From positions 98,665,180 to 98,729,179 of the forward strand of contig NC_133120.1 of NCBI RefSeq assembly GCF_033568475.1: 64,000 nucleotides of DNA. Direction: 5' to 3'. Below are positions 3,013 to 48,325 of the stretch, piece by piece. A program made the position numbers and the translations under genes. The notes under the pieces are model-generated. The model did no database searches and was not told the origin of the DNA. It saw nothing but the letters and a program-made list of their open reading frames with translations. Source of the DNA: Henckelia pumila (lineage: Eukaryota > Streptophyta > Magnoliopsida > Lamiales > Gesneriaceae). The first letter of the stretch is position 1. Each line of letters opens with the position of its first letter.

Positions 3013-6000
3013 TGTAACGCCCAGAAATTCGTCACGTAAATTCGCATGCATAACTAGGGGATTTTAATAATTTTAAAAATAAAGTGAAAATGTGTTAAAT
3101 TGTTTTATGAGTTATTATGTGAATTATGTGATTTATTGACATGTTTTAAATATTGTTTCGGCATTTAAATCGGTATGATATGATTTATGAATTTATTTGA
3201 GAAAGTCTATTTTATGATCGCGTAGGCGAGATCGTGGACGGACGAGATGTTTGTTTTCACCCAAAATATTTTATGATATTTTTAGGAGCCTTAAAATATT
3301 ATTTTAAGGTATAATTGGAAGAAAATTATTGTATTTACATATATATTTATTTATGTGCTAGTTTTTACCCAAAATAAGTTATTTTAATTACTTTTATTAA
3401 CCTTTAAAAATCTCCTATTTTATTATTTCGAGATTATTAAGTTCTTAGCAAATTATCATGTATTTTTTTAAAGGTTAAATTATAGTAATTATCTATCGAA
3501 AGTATTTATTTAAATATTTAACCTAGATTACCCAAAATATTATCCTAAGATATTCTACCCTAATCCACCTACCCCTTACCTTACGTAAACTCACCTTTGA
3601 GCCGCCTCCATCATCCATCAGAAACCTCCTCCACTTCACAGCACACACAACACGATTAACTTGAAGAAAAATCAAAAGTTTGACGTATCGTTCATCCCGG
3701 AGATCAATCTACGCGTCGATAACGTATATTCGAGCGATTAAATCGCAAAGGCATGTTTTGAATCCATTCTTGGCCACCATTTGAATCATATAAACTGTTT
3801 TTAAGCATGAATGATTTGTTAATGCACGTGTTTTCAGAATTTAAGGATAATATTTGTGATTCATGCATGAAATCCCGTTTTTATTGTATAAGGCACATGA
3901 TGATGATTTTCTGACCATGGCTTGATCGGGACTGCTGCACCTTTGTTAGGGGTCTGATCTAGGGTCCTTAGGGTCGGTTTTGGTAGGGTGGTTCAGGGCT
4001 GGAAGTGGCTGGAACCATGCTAAATGGGCTAGGACAGAAGTTGGGCGAGTGCAGATTTCTGGAGGAGGATGGGATCGGATTCTGCATGGGGGGCTTTTGG
4101 CTGAGCCAAGCTTGGTCCTTAGGTTCCGTCTGAACCCTGGGATGGTCCAGGTGTCGGAGCTCCAGCCGGTGGTGGCCGAAGCAGGTTCGAAAAGGTCAAG
4201 GGCGTGGGCTGTGCAGATCGCACAGCAGGCTTGGTTTCAAAGGGGTCAGTTCAGCCATAGGGGGGCTTGGATGGGCCAGGGCGGGTTTGTTGGAACCGGC
4301 AGGACCCTTGGTTGGTCCTGCCGGCGGCTCTCCGGCCAGGGGTGGCCGGAGCTGGGCTGTAGCAAGGGGGAAAGGGGGGACTGCCGTAAGGGAGTTAAGA
4401 GGTGAGAATGGGGAGAAGGTCACGTACAGTGAGCTTTTGGGTTTAGGCGGGCCGAGCTTGGGTCCATGGGTCTGAGTCTGTGTCGGGTCATGTTATAATG
4501 GGCCAATTTAGTTTTAGTCCGGGTCTAGATTTTATTATTTTGGGCTCGGGTATTTTATTCTAATTAATTAAGAGTTTAAGTAATTAATTAATGGCTTGGG
4601 CTTGATTAATTAATTAATTGGATAAGATTAATGGGCTTTAATAATTAATGAATTTAGCCCACTAATTTGTCATGGGCCGTGTGATCCATGAGAATTATTG
4701 AGTCATGTTGTGTCGGGATTAGTATTTTTATCGGTCAAATTTATAAGTTAATGACTAGTTAATAAATTGTATTAATTAAATTTTAAGTTAATTAGTTAAT
4801 AGGCCTAAATTATGTTTTTAGTTAGCCCATTAGTTTCTCATGGGCCTGAAGGCCCATGAAGCTTAATGGGCCATGTCAGATTGGGCTTTTGGGTTTTTGA
4901 GTTAGTCTAGGTTTTTTTTTTAAGTTTAAGTCTAGTGGCCAGCAGCTCGAACAAGTTCTTGGAAAAATAAATATTCGTAAATATATATTTAATTCATGCA
5001 TGCATTTTTATTAGATATATAAGTATGATTTTTAAGAAAATAAATTAAATATATATTTACGGACAAATTTTCATGAAATAAAGAAATAAATGAGATTTTT
5101 TTTTAAGTTCATGCATCATGTAAGAATTTTTATGATAAGTTTAAATGTATGTTAAGAAAAATATATTTTTATGGAAGTTGAAGTGAAGGTGGAAAGTGAT
5201 GTGGTTGGAGGCCGGGATACCTGGGCCCGGTGACCTTTCTAATGATGTATAAGTATGATGAGCTTATGGATCCAGCTGAGAGGGCTGGTGAAGTGGCAGC
5301 ACAGAGGTGGAAACCCCACCGCCATGTACGTTGGTTTATAGATTGATCAATCGTTTAGTATGATGCCACCGACATAGATACGACCTGTTGAGAACTAAGA
5401 AATCATGATAAGTTATTTTATGAGATTTATTAAGTATGATGATATATATTTAGCATGATGATGAAGCAGTATGATTATTTATTTATGTTTATATGCATAT
5501 AATTTTAAGATCATGCACGTATAATTATTATTCACGTATTTTATATGATGTGTGCTTGTGTGTGGTTTCATTTTGTTATGTAAGGATAGAACGTGCTGAG
5601 CCTCTAGGCTCACTAGATTTAAATGGTGCAGGTGAGCAAAATGTCAATAAGGATAATGTGTTCCTGACTGGCGGCGAGGGCGTATGAGTATCCAGGCAGC
5701 TAGTACCCGTGACCATCGCTCTATTATGAATTTTATGTTGAGACTAAAACATTTATTTCCGCATAGGTTTTATTATTATAGTTTTTTAGTATATGCATGG
5801 ATTTTAGATTTAAGTATTTATTTTCTAAGTTTTCCTGAATTTTTGTGAAAGAAATATTTTTTAGGAATTTTATTATGGCATTCTTATAAATTATTATTTA
5901 GTAATTAATTTTAAGTATTTAATTGCATGCGTGTACTTTTATTGTATCTTTTGTGTATTTGTATTTTAAATTAAGTAAAGTTATTTTTATGTATGATATA

Positions 6001-6095
6001 TATATGTATGGGCATATATATATTTATATTCATTATTTTATTATCAGAGAGTTTTGTTAAAAAAAAAAATTCAGTAGGAGTTTTAGGATGTTTCA
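3013..6095 (+). repeat. 5' LTR of the TR-GAG element
   Basis: It runs from TGTAACGCCC to TTTCA, 3083 bp, and is very AT-rich apart from a GC-rich stretch at about 3960-4480. A second copy is at 7454-10540, and a diverged third copy lies in reverse at 22371-25441 inside the Cassandra chimera. The ORFs inside it (for example 3980-4405) show no recognisable domain and I take them as chance frames in the GC-rich part. Confidence 0.95.
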
Positions 6096-6112
6096 TTTGG
6101 TATCAGAGTCAT
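6096..6112 (+). promoter_or_regulatory. Primer-binding site, initiator Met tRNA type
   Basis: TTTGGTATCAGAGTCATGG directly follows the 5' LTR. TGGTATCAGAG is the usual plant complement to the 3' end of tRNA-iMet. The same site occurs at 15813, and in reverse at 22356-22368 and 26810-26822. Confidence 0.9.
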
Positions 6113-6313
6113 GGTCCTTGGAGGGTGACTAGCTTGCTGCTCGGAGCTCAAAAACCGCACTGCCAGTCTGTAAGTTTTAATTGTTTTAAATTATGATTTA
6201 TGCACGGGACACAAGAGTTATGTTTTTAATGATTTGTGAAAATGAGAATTTAGAGTTACGACAGTCTTAAAGTCAATAATATTAGCTATGCATAGTGATT
6301 TACGTGGGGAAAT

Positions 6314-7338
6314 ATGTGGTGGTGCAATATGCCTCCTAGACAGATGAACCGACGCAAGAATCCTCCACCTCCGCAAAACCCGCTCACAGCACTGGAGCAA
6401 GCCAATGCTAATATGATGACAGGAATCAATGCATTGCTGGAGCAATAGGCAGCACGACCCCGACTTTCACACGACGAAGACGTTGCGGAACGATTCCAGA
6501 AGAAGGGACCGAAGGAGTTTTCTGGTGTCACTGATCCACTCGTGGCTGAGGGGTGGATCCGTTACTTGGAGAACATATTTGCTTATATGGGACTCACTGA
6601 TGCCGATAAAATAAAGTGCGCGGTGTACATGATGAAAGACGATGCAGCCCTTTGGTGGGAGGGCGCAGTTCGAGGTGTGAACCCACAGACTTTGACGTGG
6701 GAGGAGTTCAAGAGGATGTTCTTCGCCAAATATTTTACTGAGGATGTGCGCAGCCGAATGATTCGGGAGTTCATGAGTCTCCGGCAGGGGGACAAGACGG
6801 TGGTTGAGTATATCAAGCAGTTCGAGAGGGGGTGTCATTTTGTGCCCCTGATTGCTGATAATGCGCAGGAGAAGATGAGACAGTTCGTCGATGGACTTAG
6901 GGCGGACATCAAGCATGATGTACGCATGATGGATGTCACCACTTATGAGGCAGCGGTGAGTAGGGCACTACGATCCGAGGATGGTAGGAAGGAGATCTTG
7001 AGGGAGCAGAGAGGAAGAGGCAATTCCAACCATCGTACCACGAGTCGTATCCACAGCAAGATGCAAAGAAGCAGGCCACTGGGCCGTCAAAGGGCCCAAA
7101 TCCACTGAGACAGCAAGGAGCTATCGTTCCTCGTGCAGAAACACTACCTCTCTGCCAGAAATGCCAGAAGCCCCATCCAGGGCCGTGCATGAAGGGATCA
7201 GACATGTGCTACCATTGCAAGGAACCGGGACACATTATGCTGCACTGTCCCAAGAAGAATGCTGCGGGATGAGTCTATGTGATGCAGGCGGAGGAAGCAG
7301 TACCGGATACTTTGCGCATCACGGGTAATTATATTTAA
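6314..7338 (+). pseudogene. Broken gag of the TR-GAG element
   Basis: This is a Ty3/gypsy capsid (Retrotrans_gag type) with WWEGA, FKRMFFAKYFTEDVRSRM and MSLRQGDKTVVEYIKQFERG, followed near the end by a zinc knuckle MCYHCKEPGHIMLHC (CX2CX4HX4C, about 7204-7248). Two nearby ATGs (6314 and 6329) could start it; both are also present in the intact copy at 26590. Compared with that copy, this one has a stop TAG at 6446-6448, a one-base deletion near 7008 that shifts the frame, and a stop TGA just after NAAG (about 7270). It ends at TAA 7338, right where a protease would begin in a full element. This suggests that an autonomous ancestor lost pol between gag and the PPT. Confidence 0.9.
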
Positions 7339-7438
7339 CGCATTAAATTTGTCACATTTGGAGGGCTTGATTCGGAACTACACGAGGAAACTTGTTCTTG
7401 CCTAGAGTTCGTTTCAATTTCGAGGACGAAATTTCATT

Positions 7439-7453
7439 TAAGGGGGAGAGAAT
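7439..7453 (+). promoter_or_regulatory. Polypurine tract of the TR-GAG element
   Basis: TAAGGGGGAGAGAAT lies immediately before the 3' LTR. It follows CGAGGACGAAATTTC, a sequence usual just before the PPT of Tekay/Del-type elements. Confidence 0.88.
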
Positions 7454-10400
7454 TGTAACGCCCAGAAATTCGTCACGTAAATTCGCATGTATAACTAGGG
7501 GATTTTAATAATTTTAAAAAAAAAGTGAAAATGTGTTAAATTGTTTTATGAGTTATTATGTGAATTATGTGATTTATTGACATGTTTTAAATATTGTTTT
7601 GGCATTTAAATCGGTATGATATGATTTATGAATTTATTTGAGAAAGTTGATTTTATGATCGCGTAGGCGAGACCGTGGACGGACGAGATGTTTGTTTTCA
7701 CCCAAAATATTTTATGATATTTTTAGGAGCCTTAAAATATTATTTTAAGGTAAAATTGGAAGAAAATTATGGTATTTACATATATATTTATTTATGTGCT
7801 AGTTTTTACCCAAAATAAGTTATTTTAATTACTTTTATTAACCTTTAAAAATCTCCTATTTTATTATTTCGAGATTATTAAGTTCTTAGCAAATTATCAT
7901 GTATTTTTTTAAAAGGTTAAATTATAGTTATTATCTATCGAAAGTATTTATTTAAATATTTAACCTAGATTACCCAAAATATTATCCTAAGATATTCTAC
8001 CCTAATCCACCTACCCCTTACCTTACGTAAACTCACCTTTGAGCCACCTCCATCATCCATCAGAAACCTCCTCCACTTCATAGCACACACAACACGATTA
8101 ACTTGAAGAAAAATCAAGAATTTGACGTATCGTTCATCCCGGAGATCAATCTACGCGTCGATAACGTATATTCGAGCGATTAAATCACAAAGGCACGTTT
8201 TGAATCCATTCTTGGCCACCATTTGAATCATATAAACTATTTTTAAGCATGAATGATTTGTTAATGCATGTGTTTTCAGAATTTAAGGATAATATTTGTG
8301 ATTCATGCATGAAATCCCGTTTTTTGTTGTATAAGGCACATGATGATGATTTTCTGACCATGGCTTGATCGGGACTGCTGCACCTTTGTTAGGGGTCTGA
8401 TCTAGGGTCCTTAGGGTCGGTTTTGGTAGGGTGTTTCAGGGCTGGAAGTGGCTGGAACCATGCTAAATGGGCTAGGACAGAAGTTGGGCGAGTGCAGATT
8501 TCTGGAGGAAGATGGGATAGGATTCTGCATAGGGGGGCTTTTGGCTGAGCCAAGCTTGGTCCTTAGGTTCCGTCTGAACCCTGGGATGGTCCAGGTGTCG
8601 GAGCTCCGGTCGGTGGTGGCCGGAGCAGGTTCAAAAAGGTCAAGGGCGTGGGCTGTGCAGATCGCACAGCAGGTTTGGTTTCAAAGGGGCCGGTTCAGCC
8701 ATAGTGGGGGTTGGCTGGGCCAGGGCGGGTTTGTTGGAACTGGCAGGACCCTTGGTTGGTCCTGCCGGCGGCTCTCCGGCCAGGGGTGGCCGGAGCTGGG
8801 CTGTAGCAAGGGGGAAAGGGGGGACTGCCGTAAGGGAGTTAAGAGGTTTGAATGGGGAGAAGGTCACGTACAATGAGCTTTTGGGTTTAAGCGGGCCGGC
8901 CTTGGGTCCATGGGTCCGGATCTGTGTCGGGTCATGTTATGATGGGCCAATTTAGTTTTAGTCCGGGTCTAGATTTTATTATTTTGGGCTCGGGTATTTT
9001 ATTCTAATTAATTAAGAGTTTAAGTAATTAATTAATGGCTTGGGCTTGATTAATTAATTAATTGGATAAGATTAATGGGATTTAATAATTAATGAATTTA
9101 GCCCACTAATTTGTCATGAGCCGTGTGATCCATGAGAATTATTGGGTCATGTTGTGTCGGGATTAGTATTTTTATCGGTCAAATTTATAAGTTAATGACT
9201 AGTTAATAAATTATATTAATTAAATTTTAAGTTAATTAGTTAATAGGCCTAAATTATGTTTATAGTTAGCCCATTAGTTTCTCATGGGCCTGAAGGCCCA
9301 TGAAGCTTAATGGGCCATGTCAGATTGGGCTTTTGGGTTTTTGAGTCAGTCTAGGTTTTTTTTTTAAGTTTAAGTCTAGTGGCCAGCAGCTCGAACAAGT
9401 TCTTGGAAAAATAAATGTTCATAAATATATATTTAATTCATGCATTCATTTTTATTAGATATATAAGTATGATTTTTAAGAAAATAAATTAAATATATAT
9501 TTACGGACAAATTTTCATGAAATAAAGAAATAAATGAGATTTTTTTTTAAGTTCATGCATCATGTAAGAATTTTTATGATAAGTTTAAATGTATGTTAAG
9601 AAAAATATATTTTTATGGAAGTTGAAGTGAAGGTGGAAAGTGATGTGGTTGGAGGCCGGGATACCTGGGCCCGGTGACCTTCCTAATGATGTATAAGTAT
9701 GATGAGCTTATGGATCCAGCTGAGAGGGCTGGTGAAGTGGCAGCACAGAGGTGAAAACCCCACCGCCACGTACGTTGGTTTATAGATTGATCAATCGTTT
9801 AGTATGATGCCACCTACATGGATACGACCTGTTGAGAACTAAGAAATCATGATAAGTTATTTTATGAGATTTATTAAGTATGATGATATATATTTAGCAT
9901 GATGATAAAGCGGTATGATTATTTATTTATGTTTATATGCATATAATTTTAAGATCATGCACGTATAATTATTATTCACGTATTTTATATGATGTGTGCT
10001 TGTGTGTGATTTCATTTTGTTATGTAAGGATAGAACGTGCTGAGCCTCTAGGCTCACTAGATTTAAATGGTGCAGGTGAGCAAAATGTCAATAAGGATAA
10101 TGTGTTCCCGACTGGCGGCGAGGGCGTATGAGTATCCAAGCAGCTAGTACCCGTGACCATCGCTCTATTATGAATTTTATGTTGAGACTAAAATATTTAT
10201 TTCCACATAGGTTTTATTATTATAGATTTTTAGTATATGCATGGATTTTAGATTTAAGTATTTATTTTCTAAGTTTTCCTGAATTTTTGTGAAAGAAATA
10301 TTATTTAGGAATTTTATTATGGCATTCTTATAAATTATTATTTAGTAATTAATTTTAAGTATTTAATTGCATGCGTGTACTTTTATTGTATCTTTTGTGT

Positions 10401-10540
10401 ATTTGTATTTTAAATTAAGTAAAGTTATTTTTATGTATGATATATATATGTATGGACATATATATATTTATATTCATTATTTTATTATCAGAGAGTTTTG
10501 TTAAAAAAAAAAAATTCAGTAGGAGTTTTAGGATGTTTCA
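7454..10540 (+). repeat. 3' LTR of the TR-GAG element
   Basis: It is 3087 bp and nearly identical to 3013-6095, with scattered single-base differences and small homopolymer changes. It ends GGATGTTTCA at 10540, followed by target duplication TGATG. Its ORF-like frames (8448-8876, 9937-10131) are paralogous to those in the 5' LTR and I do not call them genes. Confidence 0.95.
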
Positions 10541-10545
10541 TGATG

Positions 10546-11489: not shown

Positions 11490-11540
11490 TTGTAATTAAT
11501 GTCTATTAATGAAGGGGTTTATTCATTCAAGAATGTTTTA

Positions 11541-14340: not shown

Positions 14341-15808
14341 TGTAGTAACCCAGAACTCATTTTAAGATAATAATATGTTAAACATAATTAAGGGTTGGTA
14401 ATTAATCAATTTCGGAGTGTTATTGGACTTCAGAAGAGAATTTGGGCTTTTGACTTTGGGCCGGATCGGAAGCTCCGAACCCAGATCGAAAGCTCCGATC
14501 CCAACCACTTCGGAAGCTCAGCGGAAGCACCGAGATCAAAAGCTCCGATCCTGGAACGGACGTTCTGATCTCCGGCTGCCAGCTTTACCCGATGACTCAG
14601 CCACGAGTTTTGACAAGTGTTGATCGGAGGCGAGATCGGAAGCTCCGATCGTCGGATCGGACGTTTCGATCCCGGCGTGTCATGCATGCAAGGCGTGAGC
14701 TGGATCGGAAGCTCCGATCCCGAGATCGGTGGTTCCGATCCTGGCCGGGAATTTTGCCTATAAATAGGGCTTGGTTGATTTCATTTGAATTACGAATTCC
14801 CGAGTATCCTTCTTCAGTTATATAGTGTGAGATATACACTTGAGGGCCCTATTGGTTATAATAGAGGTTCTGGAATAACCAAGGAGTGGTTATAGTCATC
14901 CGGGACTAGCGACTTCAAAGGGCTATCTACGGACGAAGGTATGGTCCGGGAATCTATTTAAGTTTTGGGAGTACTTATTAGCATAGTTAAGGCTTATAGA
15001 ATTTATGTAGTGATACGGTGAACTTTTGAATATAGGCTTGGAACCTAGGATCCTACTATACTTGAACTAGCCTAGAGGTACGTACACATTGACTGAGATT
15101 GCCAGCGAGTATACATGTTTATATGTTGCATTTATTTGGCATTATTATATGGCATGATATATGATTTACCGCTTTCTATATTCATATGTCATGTGCATAT
15201 ACACGTTGAGCCTATACCTTGTTATACCTAAATATAGAGCCGCTCAGCTCTATATTCGATAGTCTGTCACTGAGAGTACCGCGACGGCGGGGGCATTTTA
15301 TGTTTGACTACTCTGGTGTACTAGACGAGTGTGGTTGCACCCAGAGGTTGATCCGTGCGGTGGCAGCACTCATGTGGCGCCGGTACTGAGCATGACTTTT
15401 CGGATGACCCTTTACCAGTCATCATGTTGCATGCATTATATACATATGTTTACTCATGTCTATGTACTGGGCGTTAGCGCTCACGTCCTAGTTGTTATCT
15501 TGGACACCCTATTCCATGGGGCAGGTCACAGGATGGACGGAGCTGGTAGTTCAAAGCAGGACTAGAGAGCAGGAGCCTTGAGGAGTTTATTATACAGCAG
15601 GATTCGATATAGCTGTATAATGTTTACTTTTAAGTTTTCGATATGGTTGTATCACTATAGATTTAAGCTTGGATTATGTTACTAAGCTGATATGTAAATT
15701 ATGGTTATGTTTCCGCACGTTTTTACTCTGTTAAGTATTTTGTTGTATTAAGTTTAATGCATGCTATTAGTTGCCAGTTAGTAGGTGATTCCATGCAGGG
15801 TCACTACA
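14341..15808 (+). repeat. 5' LTR of the Tekay-like element
   Basis: It runs from TGTAGTAACCCAG to GTCACTACA. The U3 contains a palindrome array (14455-14745), followed at once by a TATA box CTATAAATAG (14759-14768). The LTR continues with a long transcribed part. No gene lies inside; the small ORFs rich in R and S come from the palindromes. Confidence 0.95.
14455..14745. repeat. Palindrome array of GATCGGAAGCTCCGATC in the U3
   Basis: About ten copies of the 17-bp palindrome GATCGGAAGCTCCGATC, or variants with the centre GGACGTTCC, occur within 290 bp directly upstream of the TATA box. The copy in the 3' LTR (20615-20905) keeps some units perfect that are mutated here (for example GATCGAAAGC versus GATCGGAAGC), mostly by C-to-T or G-to-A changes. 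Confidence 0.85.
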
Positions 15809-15810
15809 TT

Positions 15811-15825
15811 TTTGGTATCAGAGCA
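15811..15825 (+). promoter_or_regulatory. Primer-binding site of the Tekay-like element
   Basis: TTTGGTATCAGAGCATGC follows the 5' LTR after two bases. TGGTATCAGAGC is complementary to the initiator Met tRNA 3' end. Confidence 0.9.
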
Positions 15826-15918
15826 TGCTTAGATTTTGGGATTAGTACTTGGGATTTAGAATTAGTTTTGAGTAATTCTTGCGCATTTGGGATTTTAATG
15901 TGCAATTCTTTTCAGGAT

Positions 15919-18900
15919 ATGGCTGACGAGAGTCACGGTAGTGTTGGCCAGGGAGGTGGTCATCATCATCGTCATCACCGCCATCATGATGATCAACATC
16001 GTCATCATGAGGGTATACGTCGCTACTCTATCAATAAATTCATGCAAGTAGGACCGAAACCTTTGGTGGGAGGCGAGAATCCTGAACAAGCAAGAAGTTG
16101 GATGTCTAAACTCGAGAGTACTTTTCGTGCTTTCGATTGTACTGAGGATCAGAAATTGGAAGTTCTAGAATTTGTTATAGAGGATCGAGCACGTTTTTGG
16201 TAGGATGCCAAAGCTGCTCACGCACGTACTGAGAGAGGACAGGTGACTTGGGGAGATTTCTTTCAGCAGTTCCAGAAACTGTATTTTCCTCCAGCTGTTC
16301 GCCAAGCACGATCGGTGGAGTTGCTTACTCTGAGGCAAGGATCAATGACTTTTGATCAATATCAGCAATGATTTCTTGATCTGCTACCTTTCAGTCCTCA
16401 TATTAATGAGAGTGATGCATCGAAGTATGATCTCTTTCTACAAGGCCTGAACCAAGATATCTACTCACAGGTTATTGTCTGTGATGACCCACTATCTTAT
16501 GAGACTTTGGTGAACCGTTGCCGTCTTGTGGAGACCAGCAACAGGCGTGCACAGTTGTTGATGCCAGCACAGCTTAGTGGATCATTTGAGCCTAGAGCTC
16601 AATCTGTTGTGCAATCTGGACCTACGTCTTCTTCTACTCCTACTACTTCATCTGGATCTCGTGGTTCACGAGGTATGTTCCGTTTTGGGAAGAAGAAGAA
16701 GAAGGAGGAGTTTTGTAGTCACTGTGGAGGGAAGCATCCTGCAGCTTCATGTCGGAGAGCTACTGATGCTTGTTATATTTGCGGTCAGCAGGGACATCTG
16801 CGGAGAGATTGTCCTCAGCGCATGGGTTCTGCTAGTGGATCGGGATCACAGGTTGGATCTCAGGCTTCTACTTTTCCACGACAGCAGCCAGCACCATAGA
16901 GTTTTTCTGGTTACCGTCCCCAGACTCAAGGGAAAGTATTTGCTTTGTCTCAAGAACAGGCTACAGAGGGAAGCGATCGCATGTTGGCAGGTACCTTTTT
17001 GTTATGTGGTATTCCTGCACTTGTTTTAATTGATACTGGAGCATCGCTTTCCTTTATTTCTAGTCGCTTTGTTAAGAGACATAGATTACCTTATGTATCA
17101 TTAGATATGGATTTAGATGTATCTACTCCGCTGGAGCAGGAGATAGTAACTAAGCGTCTAGTGATGGGTTGCCTTCTAGAGTTTGAGGGTAATACGTTAT
17201 CGGCTAATTTGATGATATTAGCGATGACAGATTTTGATTGTATTTTGGGAATAGATATACTGACTTTGTATCATGCTACTGTGGATTGTTATCAGCGTCT
17301 GGTACAGTTTCATCCTGCTAAGGGTAATAGCTGGTATTTTTATGGTGAGGGTGCGCGACCTTCGATGCCACTTGTTTCGGCTCTGAAGGCATGTCATGTC
17401 TTGGAGTCAGGTGGGGAGGGCTACCTTATCTATGCAGTTGATATGTCCATGAGTAGTACGGGTATTGATCAGTTACCGGTAGTTAGTGAGTTTCCTGATG
17501 TATTCCCTGATGAGATTCCTGGTTTTCCTCTGGTGCGAGAGGTTGAATTTGGTATTGATTTAGTACCAGGAACTACGCCTATATCCCGAGCGCCTTATCG
17601 TCTAGCACCATCAGAGATGAGGGAATTGAAACAGCAGTTACAGGATCTGCTTGATAAGGGATATATTCGTCCGAGTGTTTCTCCGTGGGGAGCACCTGTT
17701 TTGTTCGTTAAGAAGAAAGATGGATCGATGCGATTGTGTATTGATTACAGGCAGTTGAATCGTGTCACCATCACGAATAAGTATCCTTTGCTGCAGATTG
17801 ATGATCTATTCGATCAACTAAATGGTACTTCTATTTACTCCAAGATAGATATGAGATCTGGATACCACCAGATGCGGGTACGAGACTCAGATATTTCTAC
17901 GACTGCTTTTAGGACCAGATACGGGCATTATGAATTTCTGGTTATGCCATTTGGTTTGACGAATGCACCGGCAATCTTTATGAATCTGATAAATCAGGTA
18001 TTTCGAGAATATCTGGATAGATTTGTCATCGTCTTCATTGATGATATTCTTGTCTATTCTCGTGACAAGGATGAGCATGCACAGCATTAGAGGATTGTTT
18101 TACAGACGTTACGAGATAAGCAACTATATGCGAAATTGAGCAAGTGTGAATTCTGGCTTGATCGTGTAGTGTTTCTCGGTCATGTGATTTCTATTGAAGG
18201 GATATCTGTTGATCCTAGTAAGATAGAGGCAGTGCTGAACTGGTCTCGTCCGACGACGGTTGCTGAGATTCGTAGTTTCTTGGGTCTAGCTGGATATTAC
18301 CGTCAGTTCATCGAGAATTTTGCACAGTTGGCAAGGCCTTTGACACAGCTTACATGGAAAGATGTTGCCTTCATATGGTCCTTGGATTGTGAGGAGTCAT
18401 TTCATGAGCTGCGTAGACATCTTACTACTGCACCTGTGCTAGCTCTACCTTCTAGATCAGGAGGATATGTTGTTTTCACTGATGCCTCTGGTCAGGGGTT
18501 AGGATGTGTTCTGACACAGCATGGACATGTTATTGCCTATGCTTCTCGACAGTTGAAGACGCATGAGAATAATTATCCAGTACATGATCTCGAGTTAGCC
18601 GCCATTGTATTTGCACTCAAGATCTGGAGGCATTATCTTTATGGCGAGAAATTTGAGATATTCACGGATCACAAGAGTTTGAAGTATTTATTCACTTAGG
18701 TGAAGTTGAATATGCGACAGAGACGCTGGATGGATTTTCTGAAGGATTATGATTGTGAAATCAAATATCATCCAGGTTCTGTTAATCTTACTGCTGATGC
18801 CTTGAGTCAGCAGGTGAGACTTTCTGCACTTCAGACTAGTGAAGTATCTCATATGATTCAAGAGTGCTGTTCATTGAGTTTTACGCTCAAACACAAGAAA

Positions 18901-20505
18901 TGGAGAAATGGGATTCGATTATATACTATTTTGTCTGAGCCAGCATTGTATTCTCGGATCAGAGATGCTCAGATATTTGATGTTAAGACTCAGCGTTTGG
19001 CACGTTTAGCCAATGGAGTTAATACATCTGGATTTCATTTTCAAGCAGATGGTTTATTGTGCTTATCTAATCGAGTGGTTGTACCTAATGTTGCGGAGCT
19101 CAGGAACGATATTCTATCTCAAGCTCACAGGAGTCGATTATCAGTTCATCCTGGAAGCATGAAAATGTATAAGGACTTGCGAACTAGATTCTGGTGGAAA
19201 GGGATGAAGAGGATTGTGTATCAATTTGTTTCGAGATGTTTGGTTTGTCAACAGGTCAAGGCTGAACATCGACGACCAGGTGGATTATTGCATAATCTTG
19301 AGATTCCTGAATGGAAATGGGAGCACGTAACTATGGATTTTTTTACTCACTTACCTATGACTTCACGTCAGTGTGATGCTATCTTGGTCGTTGTTGACCG
19401 TTTGACAAAATCAACACACTTTATTCCTTATAACCGGGAGTATTCTTATGATCGCATGGCACGTTTATACATCCAGGAGATAGTGTGATTGCATGGGATT
19501 CCAGTGAGCATAGTTAGTGATAGAGACCCGCGATTTACCTCACATTTTTGGGGTGGTTTTCAGGAGGCGTTGGGTACCACTCTGAGTTTGAGCACTGCAT
19601 ATCATTCGGAGACTGACGGACAGTCAGAGCGGACGATTCGTACATTGGAGGATATTCTACGTTCTTCTGTCATGGACTTTGGCTTATCTTGGCAGGATCA
19701 GTTACCTTTGATCGAATTTTCCTACAATAACAGTTATCATCGTAGTATTGATATGGCACCTTTCGAGGCATTGTATGGTCGACGGTGTCGTACTCCGTTA
19801 TTCTGGGATGAAGTCGGGGAACGGCAAGTCGAGGGTTCTGAATTGGTGCAGCAAATTGTAGACAAGGTAGATTTGATCAAGCATAGGATCAAAGTTGCTC
19901 AAGATAGACAAGCCAGTTATGCTAATATTCGTCGCAGGCCACTTCAGTTTGAGCCTGGTGAATATGTGTTTCTACGAGTATCACCTTTCAGGAAGGTGAT
20001 GAGATTCGGCGTGAAAGGCAAGTTGTCTCCTCGTTTTATTGGACCTTTCCAGATACTGGAGAAGATCGGAGATGTTGCATATCGTTTGGCTTTACCGCCA
20101 AATCTTTCCAGTATATATAATGTTTTTCATGTGTCGTTACTTCGACAGTATATAGCTGATGAATCTCATGTGATTCAGTCTACTGATATTCAGCTAGAGC
20201 CAGATCTGTCTTTTGTTGAACGACCAATCCGTATCTTAGACAGAAAGGAGAAAGTTCTTCGGAACAAGACTATACCACTTGTGATGGTACAGTGGCAGCG
20301 CCGAGGCATTGAAGAAGCAACTTGGGAAACTGAGAGTCGTATGCAAGCAGAATATCCTGAGTTATTTGCTTTGTATTTTTTATTACCATGTAGTTGTAAT
20401 TACAGTTGTTGTAATAAAACGTGGTTTGATAATTCATATTGTTATCTTGATTTGTCTTTAGATGTTATTTCGCGGACGAAATATCTAAAGGTGGGGAGAA
20501 TGTAG
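15919..20505 (+). pseudogene. Tekay-like gag-pol polyprotein with six in-frame stops
   Basis: One frame of 1529 codons starts at ATG 15919. Its order is: His-rich N-terminus; capsid; two zinc knuckles (CSHCGGKHPAASC and CYICGQQGHLRRDC, about 16715-16815); protease with LIDTGAS (about 17027); RT with FIDDILVYS (about 18037); RNase H with [14 protein letters not shown]; integrase with MDFF, SDRDPRF and [14 protein letters not shown] (all three catalytic acids present); and a C-terminal chromodomain-like segment ([29 protein letters not shown], about 20225-20360). Stops lie at 16201 (TAG), 16369 (TGA), 16897 (TAG), 18088 (TAG), 18697 (TAG) and 19486 (TGA). There is no frameshift in 4.6 kb. The final TAG (20503-20505) lies inside the first bases of the 3' LTR. 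Confidence 0.95.
20487..20500 (+). promoter_or_regulatory. Polypurine tract of the Tekay-like element
   Basis: AAAGGTGGGGAGAA lies directly before the 3' LTR start TGTAGTAACC and after GCGGACGAAATATC. Confidence 0.88.
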
Positions 20506-21919
20506 TAACCCAGAACTCATTTTAAGATAATAATATGTTAAACATGATTAAGGGTTGGTAATTAATCAATTTCGGAGTGTTATTGGACTTCGGAAGAGAA
20601 TTTGGGCTTTTGACTTTGGGCCGGATCGGAAGCTCCGAACCCAGATCGGAAGCTCCAATCCCAGCCACTTCGGAAGCTCAGCGGAAGCACCGAGATCGGA
20701 AGCTCCGATCCTGGAACGGACGTTCCGATCTCCGGCTGCCAGCTTTACCCGATGACTCAGCCACAAGTTTTGACAAGTGTTGATCGGAGGCAAGATCGGA
20801 AGCTCCGATCGTCGGATCGGACGTTCCGATCCCGGCGTGTCATGCATGCAAGGCGTGAGCTGGATCGGAAGCTCCGATCCCAAGATCTGTGGTTCCGATC
20901 CTGGCCGGGAATTTTGCCTATAAATAGGGCTTGGCTGATTTCATTTGAATTACGAATTCCCGAGTTTCCTTCTTCAGTTATATAGTGTGAGATATACACT
21001 TGAGGGCCCTATCGGTTATAATAGAGGTTCTGGAATAACCAAGGAGTGGTTATAGTGATCCGGGACTAGCGACTTCAAAGGGCTATCTACGGACGAAGGT
21101 ATGATCCGGGAATCTATTTAAGTTTTGGGAGTACTTATTAGCTTAGTTAAGGCTTATAGAATTTATGTAGTAATATGGTGAACTTTTGAATATAGGCTTG
21201 GAACCTAGGATCCTACTATACTTGAACTAGCCTAGAGGTACGTACACATTGACTGAGATTGCCAGCGAGTATACATGTTTATATGTTGCATTTATTTGGC
21301 ATTATTATATGGCATGATATATGATTTACCGCTTTTTATATTCATATGTCATGTGCATATACACGTTGAGCCTATACCTTGTTATACCTAACTATAGAGC
21401 CGCTCAGCTCTATATTCAATAGTCTGTCACTGAGAGTACCGCGACGGCGGGGGCATTTTATGTCTGACTACTCTGGTGTACTAGACGAGTGTGGTTGCAC
21501 CCAAAGGTTGATCCGTGCAGTGGTAGCACTCATGTGGCGCCGGTACTGAGCATGACTTTTTGGATGACCCTTTACCAGTCATCATGTTGCATGCATTATA
21601 TACATATGTTTACTCATGTCTATGTACTGGACGTTAGCGCTCACGTCCTAATTGTTATCTTGGACACCCTATTCCATGGGGCAGGTCACAGGATGGACGG
21701 AGCTGGTAGTTCAAGGCAGGACTAGAGAGCAGGAGCCTTAAGGAGTTTATTATACAGCAGGATTCGATATAGCTGTATAATGTTTACTTTTAAGTTTTCG
21801 ATATGGTTGTATCACTATAGATTTAAGCCTGGATTATGTTACTAAGCTGATATGTAAATTATGGTTATGTTTCCGCACGTTTTTACTCTGTTAAGTATTT
21901 TGCTGTATTAAGTTTAATG
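20501..21919 (+). repeat. 3' LTR of the Tekay-like element, main part
   Basis: Homologous to 14341-15759. It carries the same palindrome array and TATA box (20919-20928) and stops at TTTAATG (21919), where the nested chimera starts. The remaining 49 bp (starting CATGCTATTAGTTGCC) are at 27211-27259, after the duplicated TAATG. Confidence 0.95.
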
Positions 21920-22300
21920 TGTAACGTCCCACTGTATCAAGACGGGTCTTTTCAGCGTGCTTATGTCCTCACTCACACGCACCCTGAGAAACTTTCCAGG
22001 GGGTCACCCATCCTATAATTGCCCCAAGTCAAGCACGCTTAACTTTAGAGTTCTTATGTGATGAGCTCCCGAAAAGAAGATGCACCTTCTTGATATGAGC
22101 AGTACATATGAAATCTTTTTAATCCCTCCTCAACTATATAGTCCCATACCTACACAGTCTCAGAATCCCCTCTCATTCCGGCACGGGATCGGTTCATTCA
22201 TGTCTCCCTCCGCCTAGAAGCCTACCAGGAGCCGCTCATTGTCCGTGCAACCTCTTGGTACCGGCGATCACTCCCTGCCTCTTCAGCCCCGGGCGTCACA
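21920..22300 (-). repeat. Cassandra LTR (3' copy in element orientation)
   Basis: Read on the minus strand it runs from TGTGACGCCCGGGGC to GGGACGTTACA, 381 bp. The other copy is 26825-27205. Neither contains coding sequence. Confidence 0.92.
21990..22055 (-). ncRNA. 5S-rRNA-derived segment in the Cassandra LTR
   Basis: On the minus strand this segment contains AGAACTC, then AGTTAAGCGTGCTTG, and after a spacer AGGATGGGTGACCCCCTGG. These correspond to the A-box and C-box parts of the plant 5S rRNA internal control region, with changes in between. Cassandra LTRs are known to carry such a segment and may use Pol III signals. This is not a functional 5S gene: the ends of the rRNA are absent. The second copy is at about 26895-26962. 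Confidence 0.85.
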
Positions 22301-22370
22301 TGCCCACAAGCTTCCGCTTGGTTCGTCCCCGAACCATACCGTACTAAGAGAGGTCGGCTCTGATACCAAA
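22301..22370 (-). promoter_or_regulatory. Inner PBS and Cassandra internal segment with PPT
   Basis: On the minus strand, TTTGGTATCAGAGCC (22356-22370) directly follows the end of the TR-GAG LTR and continues into CGACCTCTC...GTTCGGGGACGAACC...GCTTGTGGGCA. The PPT-like GGAAGCTTGTGGGCA then abuts the Cassandra LTR. The change from TR-GAG to Cassandra sequence falls within or right after the PBS. Confidence 0.85.
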
Positions 22371-25300
22371 TGAAACATCCTAGAACTTCTAGTGAAATTT
22401 TTTTTTTTTTAAATAACTCTCTAACTATAAAATAATAAATATAAATATATATATGCCCATACATATATATATTGTACTTTAAAAAAAATACTTTACTTAA
22501 TTTAAAATACATATACACAATAAATACAATAAAAAGTACTCGCATGCAATTAAATACTTAAAATTAATTACTAAATAATCATTCATAAGATTGCCATAAT
22601 AAAATTCCTAAATAATATTTCTTTCACCAAGATTAATGAAAACTTAGAAAATAAATACTTAAATCTAAAATCCATGCAGGTACGGAAAATCTATAATAAT
22701 AAAACATATGCGGAAATAAATGTTCTAGTCTCAACATAAAATTCATCTTAGAGCAATGGTCACGGGTTCTAGCCGCTGGATACTCATACGCCCTCGCCGT
22801 CAGTCGGAAACACATTAACTTCATTAATATTCTGCTCACCTGCACCATTTAAATCTAGTGAGCCTAGAGGCTCAGCACGTTCTATCCTTATATAACAAAA
22901 TGAAACCACACACAAGCACACATCATATAAAATACGTGAATATAAATATACGTGCATGATCTTAAAAATATATGCATATAGACATGAATAAAAAATTATA
23001 ATGCTTCATCATCATGCTAAACATAAACATCACATTTAATAAATCTCATAAAATGTCTTATCATAATTTCTTAGTTCTCAACAGGTCGTATCCATGTCGG
23101 TGACATCATACTGAGCGATTGATCAATCTATAAACCAACGTACGCGGCGGTGGGGTTTCCACCTCTGTGCTGCCACTTCACCAGCCCTCTCAGCTGGATC
23201 CATAAGCTCATCATACTTATACATCATTAGGAAGGTCACCGGGCCCAGGTATCCCGGCCTCCAACCACATCACTTTCCACCTTCACTTCAACTTCCATAA
23301 AAATATTTTTTTCTTAACATGCAATTAAACTTATCATAAAAATTGTTACATGATGCATGAACATAAAAATTCTCATTTATTTCTTTATTTTCATGAAAAT
23401 TTGTCCGTAAATATATATTTAATTTATTTTCTTAAAAATCAAACTTATATATTTAATAAAATGCATGCATGAATTAAATATATATTTACGGATGTTTATT
23501 TTTCCATGGACTTGTTCGAGCTGCTGACCACTTAACTTAAACCCATAAATTTCTAGACTGACTCAAAAACCCAAAAGCCCAACCTGACCTGGCCCATTAA
23601 GTTCATGGGCCCCCAGGCCCATGAAAAACTAATGGGCTCACTAAAAACATAATTTAGGCCCATCAACTTATTAACTTAAAGTTAAATTAATAAAATTATT
23701 AACTAACCATTAACTTATAAATTTGACTGATAAAATTACTAAACCCGACACAACTTGGCCCAATAATTCTCATGAATCACACGGCCCATGAAAAATTAGT
23801 GGGCTCACTTCATTAATTATTTAAGCCCAAAATTAATATTAAATTAGTGTAATTAATTAATTAAGTCAAGCCCAAACCCATTAATTATTAACTAAATCTC
23901 TTATTTAATTTAAAATAAAAATACCCGAGTTCAACTAATATAACCCAGACCCGGACCAAACTAACTCAACCCATTATATTTTAGACCCGACCCGGACTCG
24001 AAAAGCGGAGCCCGGCCTGTCAAAACACAAGACACAACCCTAGCTTACCTCCCCCTAAGCCCAACTCGAGGCAGCCCTGAGCGGCTTCAGAAAATCTGAT
24101 AGTGCCGCCTGCTCAGGCCACCTTTGGCCGTGAAACCACCTCTCATACTTAGCCAACACCCAGACGGTTCTAACCCAACAACTTTTACCTCAAACCGTGG
24201 TCTGTGGAAGAAGAACGAACCAAAACACTCTAGACCTAGTTTCTGCTCGCGTGCAGAACGCGAGCAGCCACTTCCGGCCGTTTGGCCGCCAATATCCGGC
24301 AAGAACTGGCCGGAGAACCACCTGAAAAATCTTCCCCAAGGTCTTGGGGTTCTAACCTAACTGGAATCACCCTAAAATACGCTCTGTGGACCGAGAACGA
24401 GCAAATCTCCCAACCTCGCTCAACCTGCGCGACCTGCTGCGCATCAGAAGATATGGCCGGTTCCAGCCCTTTCCAGCCATGAACCAGCCCTCCAAACCGA
24501 CCCTAAGGACCCTAGATCAGACCCCTAACAAAGGTGCAGCAGTCCCGATCAAGCCGTGGTCAGAAAACTCGTCAACATGAGCCATATGCATAAAAAACGT
24601 GATTACATGCATGAATCATGAATAATATCCTTAAATTCTGAAAACACGTGCATTAACAAATCATTCATAGTAAAAATCAGTGTATATGATTTAAATGGTG
24701 GCCAAGAATGGATTCGAGACGTGCCTTGATGATTATTTGCAAGAAATAGCGTTTATATCGCGCGTACGGTTCCTCCGGGACGAACGAATCTCCAAACCAA
24801 TATAAAATATTAAAAGCTCGGCTATGGGGCTGTGAAAATCTTGCTGGAACGATGAAGACGATGGAGAAAGGTTGAGGGAGGCGGCTAGGGAGTTGAGGCG
24901 TGAGAAAGGGTAGAAAATCTTAGGATAACTAGGTTAATTAGTTAATAAATAATTAGGATAGATAAATACTATAATTTAAACTTAAAATAAATACATGATA
25001 ATTTTCTAAAAACTTAATAATCTCGAAATAATAAAATAGGATATTTTTAAAGGTTAATAAAAGTAATTAAAATAACTTATTTTGGATAAAAACTAGCACA
25101 TAAATAAATATATATAAATACCATAATTTTCTTCAAATTATACCTTAAAATAATATTTTAAGGCTCTTAAAAATCCCATAAAATATTTTGGGTGAAAATA
25201 ACATCTCGTCCGTCCACGGCCCCGCCTACGCGATCATAAAAATAAGATTTCTCAAATAAATTCATAAATCACATCAAACAGATTTAAATGCCGAAAGAAA

Positions 25301-25441
25301 TTATTTTAAAACATGCAAATAAATCACATAATTTAAATAATCATTCATAAAAACAATTTAACACATTTTTACATTATTTTAAAATTATTAAATTCCCTAG
25401 TTATGCATGCGGATTTACGTGACGAATTTCTGGGCGTTACA
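22371..25441 (-). repeat. Complete TR-GAG LTR inside the chimera
   Basis: On the minus strand it starts TGTAACGCCCAGAAATTC at 25441 and ends GGATGTTTCA at 22371, 3071 bp. It is collinear with 3013-6095 but clearly more diverged from it than those two LTRs are from each other, so it comes from another family member. The chimera has only one such LTR. Confidence 0.92.
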
Positions 25442-25457
25442 ATTCTCTCCCCCTTAA
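25442..25457 (-). promoter_or_regulatory. Polypurine tract of the embedded TR-GAG unit
   Basis: On the minus strand, TTAAGGGGGAGAGAAT precedes the TR-GAG LTR exactly as at 7439-7453, after CGAGGACGAAATTCC. Confidence 0.85.
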
Positions 25458-25558
25458 ATGGAATTTCGTCCTCGAAATTGAAACGAACTCCAGGCAATAA
25501 CAAGTTTCTTTGCGTAGTCCCGAATAGAGCAAATCCAAAAACGACAAATTTTAATGCG

Positions 25559-26590
25559 TTAAGAAAAATTACCCGTGATGCGCAAAGTATCCGGCACTGC
25601 TTCCTCCGCCTGCATCACATAAACACGTCCGATAGCATTCTTCTTGGGACAGTGCAGCATGATGTGTCCTGGTTCCTTGCAATGATAGCACATGCCTGAT
25701 CCCTTCATGCACGGCCCTGGATGGGGCTTCTGGCATTTCTGGCAAAGAGGTAGTGCTTCTGCACGAGGAACGATAGCTCCCTGCTGTCTCGGTGGATTTG
25801 GGCCCTTCAACGGCCCAATGGACTGCTTCTTTGCATCCTGCTGTGGATACGACTCGTGATACGATGGTTGGAACTGCCTTTTCCTCTGCTGCTCCCTCAA
25901 GATCTCCTTCCTACCATCCTCGGATCTCAATGCCCTACTAACCTCTGCCTCATAAGTGGTGACGTCCATCATTCGTACATCATGCTTGATCTCCGCCCTA
26001 AGCCCATCGATGAACTGTCTCATCTTCTCCTCGGCACTATCAGCAATCAGGGGCACAAAATGACACCCCCTCTCGAACTGCTTGATGTACTCAACCACTG
26101 TCTTGTCCCCCTGTCGGAGACTCATAAACTCCCGGATCATGCGACTGCGCACATCCTCCGTGAAATACTTGGCGTAGAAGATACGCCTAAACTCCGCCCA
26201 AGTCAATGTAGGAAGATGTACTCCCCTGGCAGCACCCTCCCACCAAAGAGCTGCATCTCCCCTCATCATATAAGTCGCACAGTTCACCCTGTCGGCGTCA
26301 GTAATCCCCATGTATGCAAAGATGGACTCCAAAGAACGAATCCACCCCTCAGCCACCAATGGATCGGTGGTACCAGTGAACTCCTTCGGCCCCTTCTTAT
26401 GGAACCGCTCAGCAACGTCCTCCTCGTGGGACAGTCTAGGACGTGCAGCCTGCTGCTCCAACAGAGCAGTAGTCCCTGCCATCATATTAGCATTGGCCTG
26501 CTCCAATGCTGCAAGAGGATTCTGCGGAGGTGGAGGTGGAGGTTCCCCACGTCGATTCATAGGTCTCGGAGGCATTCTGCACCACCACAT
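25559..26590 (-). CDS. Intact gag of the embedded TR-GAG unit
   Basis: This frame of 343 aa is open throughout. A proline-rich N-terminus (PPPPPPQNP) is followed by the Retrotrans_gag capsid core (WWEGAARG, FYAKYFTEDVRSRMIR, YIKQFERGCHF) and the zinc knuckle CYHCKEPGHIMLHC near residues 303-316. It ends at LRITGNFS with no protease. Two in-frame ATGs (26590 and 26575) are candidates; both are conserved in the broken copy at 6314. Gag-only elements presumably supply their own particle protein and borrow RT and integrase. It is the only undamaged retroelement coding frame in the window, which may mean recent activity or simply recent insertion. Confidence 0.88.
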   Translation of the reverse strand: MWWCRMPPRPMNRRGEPPPPPPQNPLAALEQANANMMAGTTALLEQQAARPRLSHEEDVAERFHKKGPKEFTGTTDPLVAEGWIRSLESIFAYMGITDADRVNCATYMMRGDAALWWEGAARGVHLPTLTWAEFRRIFYAKYFTEDVRSRMIREFMSLRQGDKTVVEYIKQFERGCHFVPLIADSAEEKMRQFIDGLRAEIKHDVRMMDVTTYEAEVSRALRSEDGRKEILREQQRKRQFQPSYHESYPQQDAKKQSIGPLKGPNPPRQQGAIVPRAEALPLCQKCQKPHPGPCMKGSGMCYHCKEPGHIMLHCPKKNAIGRVYVMQAEEAVPDTLRITGNFS

Positions 26591-26809
26591 ATTTCTTTAC
26601 GTAAATCGCCATGCATAACTAATATTTTTTTATTTTTATTTTTTGACTTTAAGACTGTCATAACTTTAAATTCTCATTTTCATAAATCATTGAAAATATA
26701 AACTCCTGTGTCCCATGTATAAATCATAATTTAAAACACTTAAAACTTACAGACTGGCAGTGCGGTTTCTGAGCTCCGTGTAGCAGGCTAGTCACCCTCC
26801 AAGGACCAT

Positions 26810-26822
26810 GGCTCTGATACCA
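26810..26822 (-). promoter_or_regulatory. Outer PBS of the chimera
   Basis: On the minus strand the Cassandra LTR end ACGTTACA is followed by AATGGTATCAGAGCCATGG. It then continues as TR-GAG leader (TCCTTGGAGGGTGACTAG, also at 6115-6132), not as Cassandra. The switch from Cassandra to TR-GAG therefore also lies at the PBS. Confidence 0.88.
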
Positions 26823-26824
26823 TT

Positions 26825-27205
26825 TGTAACGTCCCACTGTATAAAGACGGGTCTTTTCAGCGTGCTTATGTCCTCACTCACACGCACCCTGAGAAACTTT
26901 CCAGGGGGTCACCCATCCTATAATTGCCCCAAGTCAAGCACGCTTAACCTTAGAGTTCTTATGTGATGAGCTCCCGAAAAGAAGATGCACCTTCTTGATA
27001 TGAGCAGTACATATGAAATCTTTTTAATCCCTCCTCAACTATGTAGTCCCATACCTACACAGTCTCAGAATCCCCTCTCATTCCGGCACGAGATCGGTTC
27101 ATTCATGTCTCCCTCCGCCTAGAAGCCTACCAGGAGCCGCTCATTGTCCGTGCAACCTCTTGGCACCGGCGATCACTCCCTGCCTCTTCAGCCCCGGGCG
27201 TCACA
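26825..27205 (-). repeat. Cassandra LTR (5' copy in element orientation)
   Basis: 381 bp, nearly identical to 21920-22300, with differences such as ATCAAGAC/ATAAAGAC and GGGATC/GAGATC. It contains the second 5S-derived segment (about 26895-26962). Confidence 0.92.
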
Positions 27206-27259
27206 TAATGCATGCTATTAGTTGCCAGTTAGTAGGTGATTCCATGCAGGGTCACTACA

Positions 27260-27880: not shown

Positions 27881-28091
27881 GTGAAGAACTTACATCTAGG
27901 CTGTAGATTTAAAGATGATCGGAGGGTAAGGATGAGCTTGGGAAGTTGAACCGGGCAGCGTAATGATCATACGGGTAGTTGAAAGGACAAGTAACGTCCA
28001 CTGACACCTGCCCGTCACTTCAAATTCTAGGGCTGACGTCAGCCCTACAGCATTTAACAAAATTTCACAATTTGTTTAAAGCCCCACGGAA

Positions 28092-28640
28092 TGGTGATAC
28101 CCCGGGAAGTCAGGGGTATCAGGGCTAAGAAAAAGCATAAGCATCAGGGATGTTAGTCAGGACAGCGAACAGGGTTCTAGCCCGACTATTTTTAGGGAGG
28201 AGTGGTGATATCCCGGGAAGTCAGGGGTATCAGGGCTAAGAAGAATCAGAAGCATCAGGGATGTTAGTCAGGACAGCGAACATGGTTCTAGCCCGACTAT
28301 TTTTAGGGAGGAGTGATGATATCCCGGGAATCCAGGGGTATCAGGGCTAAGGAGAAGCAGAACATCAGGGATACTAGTCAGGACAGCGAACAGGGTTCTA
28401 GCCCGACTATTTTTAGGGAGGAGTGGTGATATCCCGGGAAGCCAGGGGTATCAGGGCTAAGGAGAAGCAAAAGCATCAGAGATGCTAGTCAGGACAGCGA
28501 ACAGGGTTCTAGCCCGATTATTTTTAGGGAAGAGTGGTGATATCCCAGGAAGCCAGGGGTATCAGGGCTAAGGAGAAGCAGAAGCACCAAGGATGCTAGT
28601 CAGGGCAGTGAACAAAGCTATACCGAGTCAAGGACGTTAG
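28092..28640 (+). repeat. Five ~111-bp tandem units spanning a PPT/LTR-start-like junction
   Basis: Units begin TGGTGATAtCCCGGGAA at 28092, 28203, 28314, 28424 and 28535. Units two to five are each preceded by TTTTTAGGGAGGAG or a one-base variant. The same pair of motifs (TTTTAGGGGGGGACT followed by TGTGATACCCTGGG) forms the PPT/3' LTR boundary of Retand-B at 52829-52860. So the repeat unit here contains what looks like PPT plus the start of U3, several times over. Confidence 0.85.
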
Positions 28641-43080: not shown

Positions 43081-43082
43081 AT

Positions 43083-43097
43083 TGGCGCCGTCTGTGG
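43083..43097 (+). promoter_or_regulatory. Primer-binding site of Retand-B
   Basis: TGGCGCCGTCTGTGG begins two bases after the LTR. This PBS type is seen in Tat-lineage elements and differs from the Met-tRNA type of the other elements here. I did not assign the tRNA. Confidence 0.8.
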
Positions 43098-43120
43098 AAA
43101 ATTTAAGCTAAGGCGTAGAT

Positions 43121-48225: not shown

Positions 48226-48325
48226 ATGTTGCAAGAACAATTTTTCTTTAAGTTGTAATTCATGCAAGCTGCATTTTACTTTTATCTATAAGCAGTTATT
48301 CTTTCAGAAATATTGATGAAAACAC

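Follow-up and report, generated by a model that had tools for sequence, protein, structure and literature searches.

A chimeric retroelement in Henckelia pumila with a Cassandra element and one TR-GAG unit joined at the primer-binding site

In a 64,000-nucleotide stretch of Henckelia pumila DNA (contig NC_133120.1, positions 98,665,180 to 98,729,179; the window, whose own positions serve as coordinates throughout), a 5,286-bp element on the minus strand, running from 27205 to 21920, combines two unrelated families of long terminal repeat (LTR) retrotransposons. Its outer LTRs and a short stretch of interior belong to Cassandra, a terminal-repeat retrotransposon in miniature (TRIM), and between them lie the interior and one LTR of a terminal-repeat retrotransposon with GAG domain (TR-GAG), a group for which Chaparro et al. 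2015 is reportedly the defining paper. Along the minus strand the parts follow in the order Cassandra LTR, AA, primer-binding site (PBS), TR-GAG leader, gag, polypurine tract (PPT), TR-GAG LTR, TT, PBS, Cassandra interior, and Cassandra LTR, and the whole is flanked by a perfect target-site duplication (TSD). This order, with both switches between families placed in the PBS, had been proposed in an initial annotation of the DNA, and boundaries verified by script confirm it to the base. The features are listed below, where the resident TR-GAG is a second element of that family in the same window.

21915..21919, no strand: TSD TAATG, left copy, matching 27206-27210 and the single copy at 15755-15759
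27206..27210, no strand: TSD TAATG, right copy, a perfect match to the left copy
26825..27205, minus: Cassandra LTR, 5' copy, 381 bp, TG...CA; box A, 18 nt, and box C at 26949-26907
26810..26822, minus: PBS#1, TGGTATCAGAGCC, junction of Cassandra LTR and TR-GAG leader
26576..26809, minus: TR-GAG leader, from alignment to the resident TR-GAG
25559..26575, minus: gag open reading frame (ORF), 338 aa, with capsid domain and CCHC zinc knuckle
25442..25455, minus: TR-GAG PPT, AAGGGGGAGAGAAT; the same stretch also precedes the resident 3' LTR at 7454
22371..25441, minus: single complete TR-GAG LTR, 3,071 bp, TGTAACG...TTTCA
22356..22368, minus: PBS#2, TGGTATCAGAGCC, junction of TR-GAG LTR (with its own TT spacer) and Cassandra interior
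22301..22355, minus: Cassandra interior after the PBS, 55 bp, with a weak purine-rich end, GTGGGCA
21920..22300, minus: Cassandra LTR, 3' copy, 381 bp; Rfam 5S match at 22087-21974; box A, 18 nt, and box C at 22044-22002

Both family junctions fall inside the 13-nt Met-tRNA PBS, which both families use as their PBS and which is the longest word common to Cassandra and the TR-GAG unit; the next longest, in either orientation, is 10 nt. The spacers have stayed with their own LTRs, AA after that of Cassandra and TT after that of TR-GAG, as in the resident TR-GAG. A shared word of at least 13 nt arose in 25 of 1,000 Markov-resampled units compared with the Cassandra LTR, PBS, and interior, which means that such a word is no great rarity on its own. 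The weight of the case lies in the placement of both junctions within this word and in its being the PBS of both partners, not in the length of the word.

The chimera sits inside the 3' LTR of a Ty3/gypsy element that has protease and reverse transcriptase domains at 16945-18090, and the 5' LTR of the same host retains the empty site.

14341..27259, plus: host Ty3/gypsy element; 5' LTR at 14341-15808, 3' LTR at 20501-21919 plus 27206-27259, the chimera lying inside the 3' LTR
15755..15759, plus: empty site, uninterrupted TAATG in the host 5' LTR

The two host LTRs align at 97.4% identity to the left of the insertion (14334-15759 versus 20494-21919) and at 100% to its right (15755-15808 versus 27206-27259), and the sister LTR is without the block 21920-27205 plus one TAATG, which matches the prediction of an integrase-type insertion. 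One perfect TSD and an uninterrupted sister site are compatible with a single integration. Perfect TAATG flanks had been noted in the initial annotation and are borne out at 21915-21919 and 27206-27210; the empty site, which it did not mention, adds support for a PBS-joined chimera with a single duplication.

Divergence between LTRs gives a weak indication of relative age. The Kimura two-parameter (K2P) distance of the host pair is 0.0252, with an error of 0.004, over 1,419 sites left of the insertion (0 of 49 sites differ on its right), and that of the Cassandra pair is 0.0133, with an error of 0.006, over 381 sites. The Cassandra LTRs would then be no older than those of the host, the expected order, with a gap of less than two errors. 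The embedded TR-GAG unit could not be dated in the same way, since its nearest relatives within the window differ from it at K2P values of about 0.12 (LTR) and 0.146 (interior); at such distances, a proposal that Cassandra LTR divergence be compared with that of the embedded LTR and its relatives proved uninformative.

The two outer LTRs are identical at 376 of 381 positions, with five substitutions and no gaps. Both carry box A RGTTAAGYRHGY, 18 nt, and box C RRRATRGGTRACY, an arrangement printed as a Cassandra query in the available text of Kalendar et al. 2020 (PMC7215508), and a search for it on the minus strand of the window matched only these two LTRs. In a 501-base search that took in the 3' Cassandra LTR only, Rfam model RF00001 matched at 26.8 bits (E 0.0021), below its gathering score of 38, and a gathering-level Rfam search of the whole window found no match. 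The outer LTRs appear, from their sequence, to be related to 5S, with a weak likeness by Rfam, and the description of them in the initial annotation as 5S derived stands as a real though weak relation, in which the spacing of boxes A and C fits. PBS#1, which follows the 5' LTR and its AA, contains the Met-tRNA PBS TGGTATCAGAGC of Cassandra, the tRNA match being taken from the accessible part of PMC7215508. A 5S-like LTR, box A and box C 18 nt apart, this Met PBS, and a very short non-coding interior are shared with Cassandra TRIMs as the available portions of three papers describe them (PMC7215508; PMC10853983; PMC4717578). The miniature size and non-coding interior of Cassandra are found only in the LTRs and the 55-bp interior; the element as a whole measures 5,286 bp and has a gag ORF. 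Tandem arrays of Cassandra with at least three LTRs are known, and template switching is one possible source of them according to the same available text (PMC7215508), but those arrays belong to a single family, whereas the second unit here is a foreign, gag-bearing interior with a foreign 3.07-kb LTR.

The embedded unit is like TR-GAG elements, to the extent that the portion of PMC8704663 at hand describes them, in having one gag ORF, with a PBS before it and a PPT after it, long LTRs, and no pol that we found. Its gag encodes 338 aa from the ATG at 26575 (343 aa if an in-frame ATG further upstream is used) and matches Retrotrans_gag (PF03732, 62.2 bits) and Ty3_capsid (PF19259, 45.1 bits) in Pfam, with no enzyme domain. 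ORFs of at least 180 aa in 22371-26822 comprise gag, which the Pfam scan covered, and one overlapping antisense ORF at 25856-26701. The unit has the single gag ORF of a TR-GAG element, with a PBS, a PPT before 25441, and no protease, reverse transcriptase, or integrase match in gag, but it has one LTR of its own (25441-22371) instead of two, and a Cassandra LTR occupies the place of its 5' LTR. A protein search with gag returned 146 proteins at E values up to 0.001 among 5,191 candidates, and the closest relative among the 120 matches listed was from Henckelia pumila, at 87%. Scans for gag and for the first junction in a collection of viral contigs, which is not a plant collection and may leave out records of the window's own genome, found no match to either.

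The resident TR-GAG is a separate and complete element of normal form.

3013..10540, plus: complete two-LTR TR-GAG with broken gag; LTRs at 3013-6095 and 7454-10540; TSD TGATG

Its LTRs are 97.7% identical (K2P, 0.0218), and the embedded LTR differs from them at K2P values of 0.120 and 0.124, with 0.146 for the interior; in the K2P run the resident LTR borders stood at 6096, 7455, and 10541, each shifted by a single base. The leaders are 91.9% identical over 26822-26673 and 84.5% over 26672-26523. In the translated alignment the resident gag has a stop and a frame break, with another stop later, and the embedded gag is open. The dN/dS ratio between the two gags is 0.12 (333 codons; bootstrap, 0.08 to 0.18), from which it appears that the gag of the TR-GAG family has been kept under selection, a conclusion with no bearing on the chimera itself. 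When codons were paired from the DNA alignment, dS was 0.609 and dN 0.069 over 332 codons. Synonymous divergence between the two gags is patchy (26575-25562), with dS at 1.44 across the capsid half against 0.22 across the C-terminal half, which suggests segment exchange within TR-GAG. Over the whole embedded unit, 27 of 31 comparison windows are 72.9 to 98.7% identical to the resident and the other four 42.0 to 48.5%; three of the four make up a block of about 440 bp, 24457-24016, between well-matched flanks, and the fourth is 24892-24755. The block aligned with the resident no better than shuffled sequence did, with a local score of 26 against a best of 32 and a mean of 20.3 in 200 shuffles. 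The TR-GAG LTR family appears to be modular, and the embedded unit looks like a mosaic compatible with a family that swaps segments, whichever the route. As to its surroundings, the resident TR-GAG apparently lies inside another Ty3 element, with a pol-like ORF at 771-3017 recognized by eye and an integrase at 10437-11489 recognized by Pfam. The targets of the resident TR-GAG (TGATG, 3008-3012) and of the chimera (TAATG, 21915-21919) are similar, and CAT comes next at both insertion points.

We consider the chimera to be, probably, a heterologous reverse-transcription complex, in which cDNAs of Cassandra and TR-GAG were fused at the PBS before integration. Under this model, both cDNAs would be made in one particle, with Met-tRNA priming each of them. 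Cassandra plus-strand strong-stop DNA, a copy of the LTR and PBS, would anneal through the 13-nt PBS to the TR-GAG minus strand, and its extension would run through leader, gag, PPT, and LTR up to the tRNA-copied PBS at the end of the TR-GAG strand, where, by a second PBS transfer, the nascent strand would move to the minus strand of Cassandra itself. This would give LTR(C)-PBS-gag-PPT-LTR(T)-PBS-interior(C)-LTR(C), in which C denotes Cassandra and T denotes TR-GAG, a product with normal Cassandra ends that would be integrated once. A single biochemical step, PBS-guided plus-strand transfer, would suffice if used twice. We infer the co-packaging, the two plus-strand transfers, and their timing before integration from the structure of the element. 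The initial annotation had offered a switch of templates by reverse transcriptase at the PBS as one origin, and the origin that we favor narrows that switch to plus-strand (PBS) transfer; the other origin that it had offered, recombination of a one-LTR TR-GAG circle with Cassandra at the PBS, may also apply.

The structure of the inserted block, PBS-interior-PPT-LTR-PBS, is that of a finished TR-GAG minus strand in plus sense, the second PBS being the tRNA copy. The retention of the AA and TT spacers, at the site where minus-strand synthesis starts, also speaks for transfer during reverse transcription, and the mosaic TR-GAG unit, compatible as it is with a segment-exchanging family, may be counted on the same side. 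A common TSD and near-identical outer LTRs are the features that distinguish reverse-transcription complexes from recombination after insertion (Sabot and Schulman 2007, PMC1950507). The available text of PMC3187697 describes retroviral plus-strand transfer as relying on short PBS complementarity. According to the part of a 2025 review that we could consult, second-strand transfer depends on PBS microhomology and on host alternative end-joining factors, and in the fly element mdg4 and mouse IAP this PBS-guided route gives mainly one-LTR circles, the mechanism by which plant circles form being open (PMC12786077).

Several points weigh against an origin during reverse transcription. Every sequence feature of the chimera would also result if a Cassandra already in place were entered later, at its PBS, by a TR-GAG cDNA or one-LTR circle; the sharing of particles by Cassandra and TR-GAG is something that we infer; a single copy of the chimera is known; and the mosaic pattern may stem from recombination in DNA. 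The first of these points amounts to an alternative in two steps, which we regard as possible but rather unlikely, in which a plain Cassandra was inserted first and later took up a TR-GAG one-LTR circle or cDNA at its PBS, integrase playing no part and the joining being due to microhomology repair or single-strand annealing. The product would be identical, and no microhomology between the two families is longer than the 13-nt PBS. As a basis for homologous recombination with just one target in the chromosomes, though, 13 nt is short, and fusion before integration needs no second event at the locus. The two-step route has a counterpart in integrase-defective Tf1, which, in the available part of the same review, inserts most often at partly homologous stretches, the PBS and PPT included, by an integrase-independent route that tends toward tandem insertions (PMC12786077).

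The initial annotation had also suggested that, if the chimera moved as a unit, a small TRIM had become a 5.3-kb element that encodes its own Gag. An established mobile lineage, with multiple copies of both junctions at different sites arising from RNA that reads through from one Cassandra LTR to the other, seems very unlikely to us. The ends of the element, PBS#1, the Cassandra 3' end, and the gag ORF are intact, so that nothing forbids the copying of a full read-through RNA, and a read-through RNA that spans both Cassandra LTRs could in principle replicate the complete element. Against this, no second copy of the chimera occurs within the 64-kb window, and signals that stop RNA polymerase III (Pol III), to which Cassandra transcripts are ascribed in the accessible text of PMC12786077, precede gag. 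Between box C of the 5' LTR (26907) and the start of gag (26575) there are at least three sense-strand runs of four T (26745, 26736, and 26696), and transcription by Pol III would therefore be predicted to end before it reaches gag; among the runs listed, the next one after box C in the Cassandra parts alone is at 22075, in the 3' LTR. The element has 69 such runs, and positions were taken from the first eight and the last six. An RNA from the LTR of one family to that of the other would be expected to have unlike R ends and should fail at first-strand transfer, since, the PBS apart, the two families have no common word of more than 10 nt that could provide a shared R. The Pol III stops and the lack of shared LTR sequence for first-strand transfer make easy spread doubtful, and the chimera looks like a fossil of a known type of mix-up, with no sign of spread within the window. 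What holds of the earlier interpretation is the joining of unrelated families at the PBS, with one TR-GAG unit of LTR plus interior inside Cassandra and a single duplication; movement as a unit and a self-encoded Gag are not supported so far.

That the locus is an assembly or library artefact joining copies of Cassandra and TR-GAG is highly unlikely. The locus is known here from assembled sequence, but an artefact would take two joins, both within the 13-nt PBS and with the TSD and empty site still preserved, and assemblers do not normally join sequences on an overlap of as little as 13 bp. Recombination between two neighboring, independently inserted elements after integration (a Devos-type complex) is by far the commonest source of three-LTR structures, with 20 recombinant complexes against 2 due to template switching in about 7 Mb of Triticeae DNA (Sabot and Schulman 2007, Table 1, PMC1950507), but it expects a hybrid middle LTR and no common TSD, and we rejected it as scarcely credible for an element with a perfect TSD, an intact empty site, outer LTRs paired at 376/381, and an unmixed middle LTR bounded on both sides by TR-GAG ends without Cassandra sequence. 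Nested insertion into Cassandra was rejected because the inner borders are PBS copies and not target duplications; a whole nested TR-GAG would have two LTRs where gag is accompanied by exactly one, and a nested solo LTR does not fit with gag beside the single LTR.

Template-switching complexes are a described kind, with two in about 7 Mb of Triticeae DNA, one in rice, and one in maize (Sabot and Schulman 2007, PMC1950507). The chimera is like the Angela, Squiq, and Opie complexes, which are attributed to a switch between co-packaged templates, in having three LTRs and two interiors, all oriented alike, a single 5-bp TSD, and near-identical outer LTRs (PMC1950507). It has the internal third LTR, the two interiors, the flanking TSD (TAATG), and the outer LTR pair (376/381) by which Sabot and Schulman recognize such complexes. 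Their partners, however, are close relatives that switched in the R region, whereas the partners here are unrelated, the junctions lie at the PBS, and the middle LTR is wholly unlike the outer ones. Unrelated partners, one of them a TRIM, and joints at the PBS are what sets this element apart from those complexes. Experiments with Tnt1 and mini-Tnt1 in tobacco offer a further likeness, co-packaged plant retroelement RNAs having recombined during reverse transcription, but the available text places those switches in minus-strand synthesis, within homologous LTR sequence of a single family (PMC2923131). Our literature search found no paper naming both Cassandra and TR-GAG, and in the titles and abstract openings searched we recognized no PBS-joined chimera of unrelated families, and the available text of PMC12312487 had nothing that bears on one; most subscription papers were beyond its reach, and an earlier description is possible.

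The account of PBS microhomology and alternative end joining in the 2025 review is reportedly based on Yang et al. 2023 as its primary paper. If second-strand transfer runs on PBS microhomology, then fusion at the PBS should be open to unrelated elements, and this locus is a clean example of such a fusion with the empty site preserved. If the one-step origin is true, copying of the TRIM took place near that of a gag-only element, and this is relevant to the question of which element supplies the particles for Cassandra. Genome-wide counts could use a simple signature, LTR(A)-PBS-interior(B)-LTR(B)-PBS-interior(A)-LTR(A) flanked by a TSD. Initiator Met-tRNA is the commonest primer of plant LTR retrotransposons, according to the consulted part of PMC12786077. 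A larger reading, that the chimera is a mobile 5.3-kb Cassandra composite with 5S-type LTRs that has gained gag through cDNA fusion guided by the PBS and, more broadly, that the Met-tRNA PBS is a general joint at which unrelated co-packaged plant retroelements swap entire units in the course of second-strand transfer, strikes us as improbable.

The rest of the window contains further repeats and pieces of ordinary genes. The stretch 42475-53668 is probably another Ty3 element, with 95% similar segments at 42475-43080 and 53062-53668, a gag ORF at 43121-44146 recognized by Pfam, and pol-like ORFs recognized by eye. It includes two tandem arrays, 19 copies of 45 bp (48325-49185) and 10 copies of 68 bp (49485-50197), and antisense ORFs, of which that at 51489-52481 matches Pfam Transposase_28, "putative gypsy type transposon." Tandem arrays also lie near retroelement ORFs at 11539-12292 (70-bp units, about nine copies) and 28088-28614 (111-bp units, about five copies). 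The ordinary plant gene pieces are those of an RRM protein (33655-34221), SufB/ABCI8 (38763-40184), and an HSP70-family protein (57464-58672), and the SufB frame encodes 473 residues that are 100% identical to a Henckelia pumila protein.

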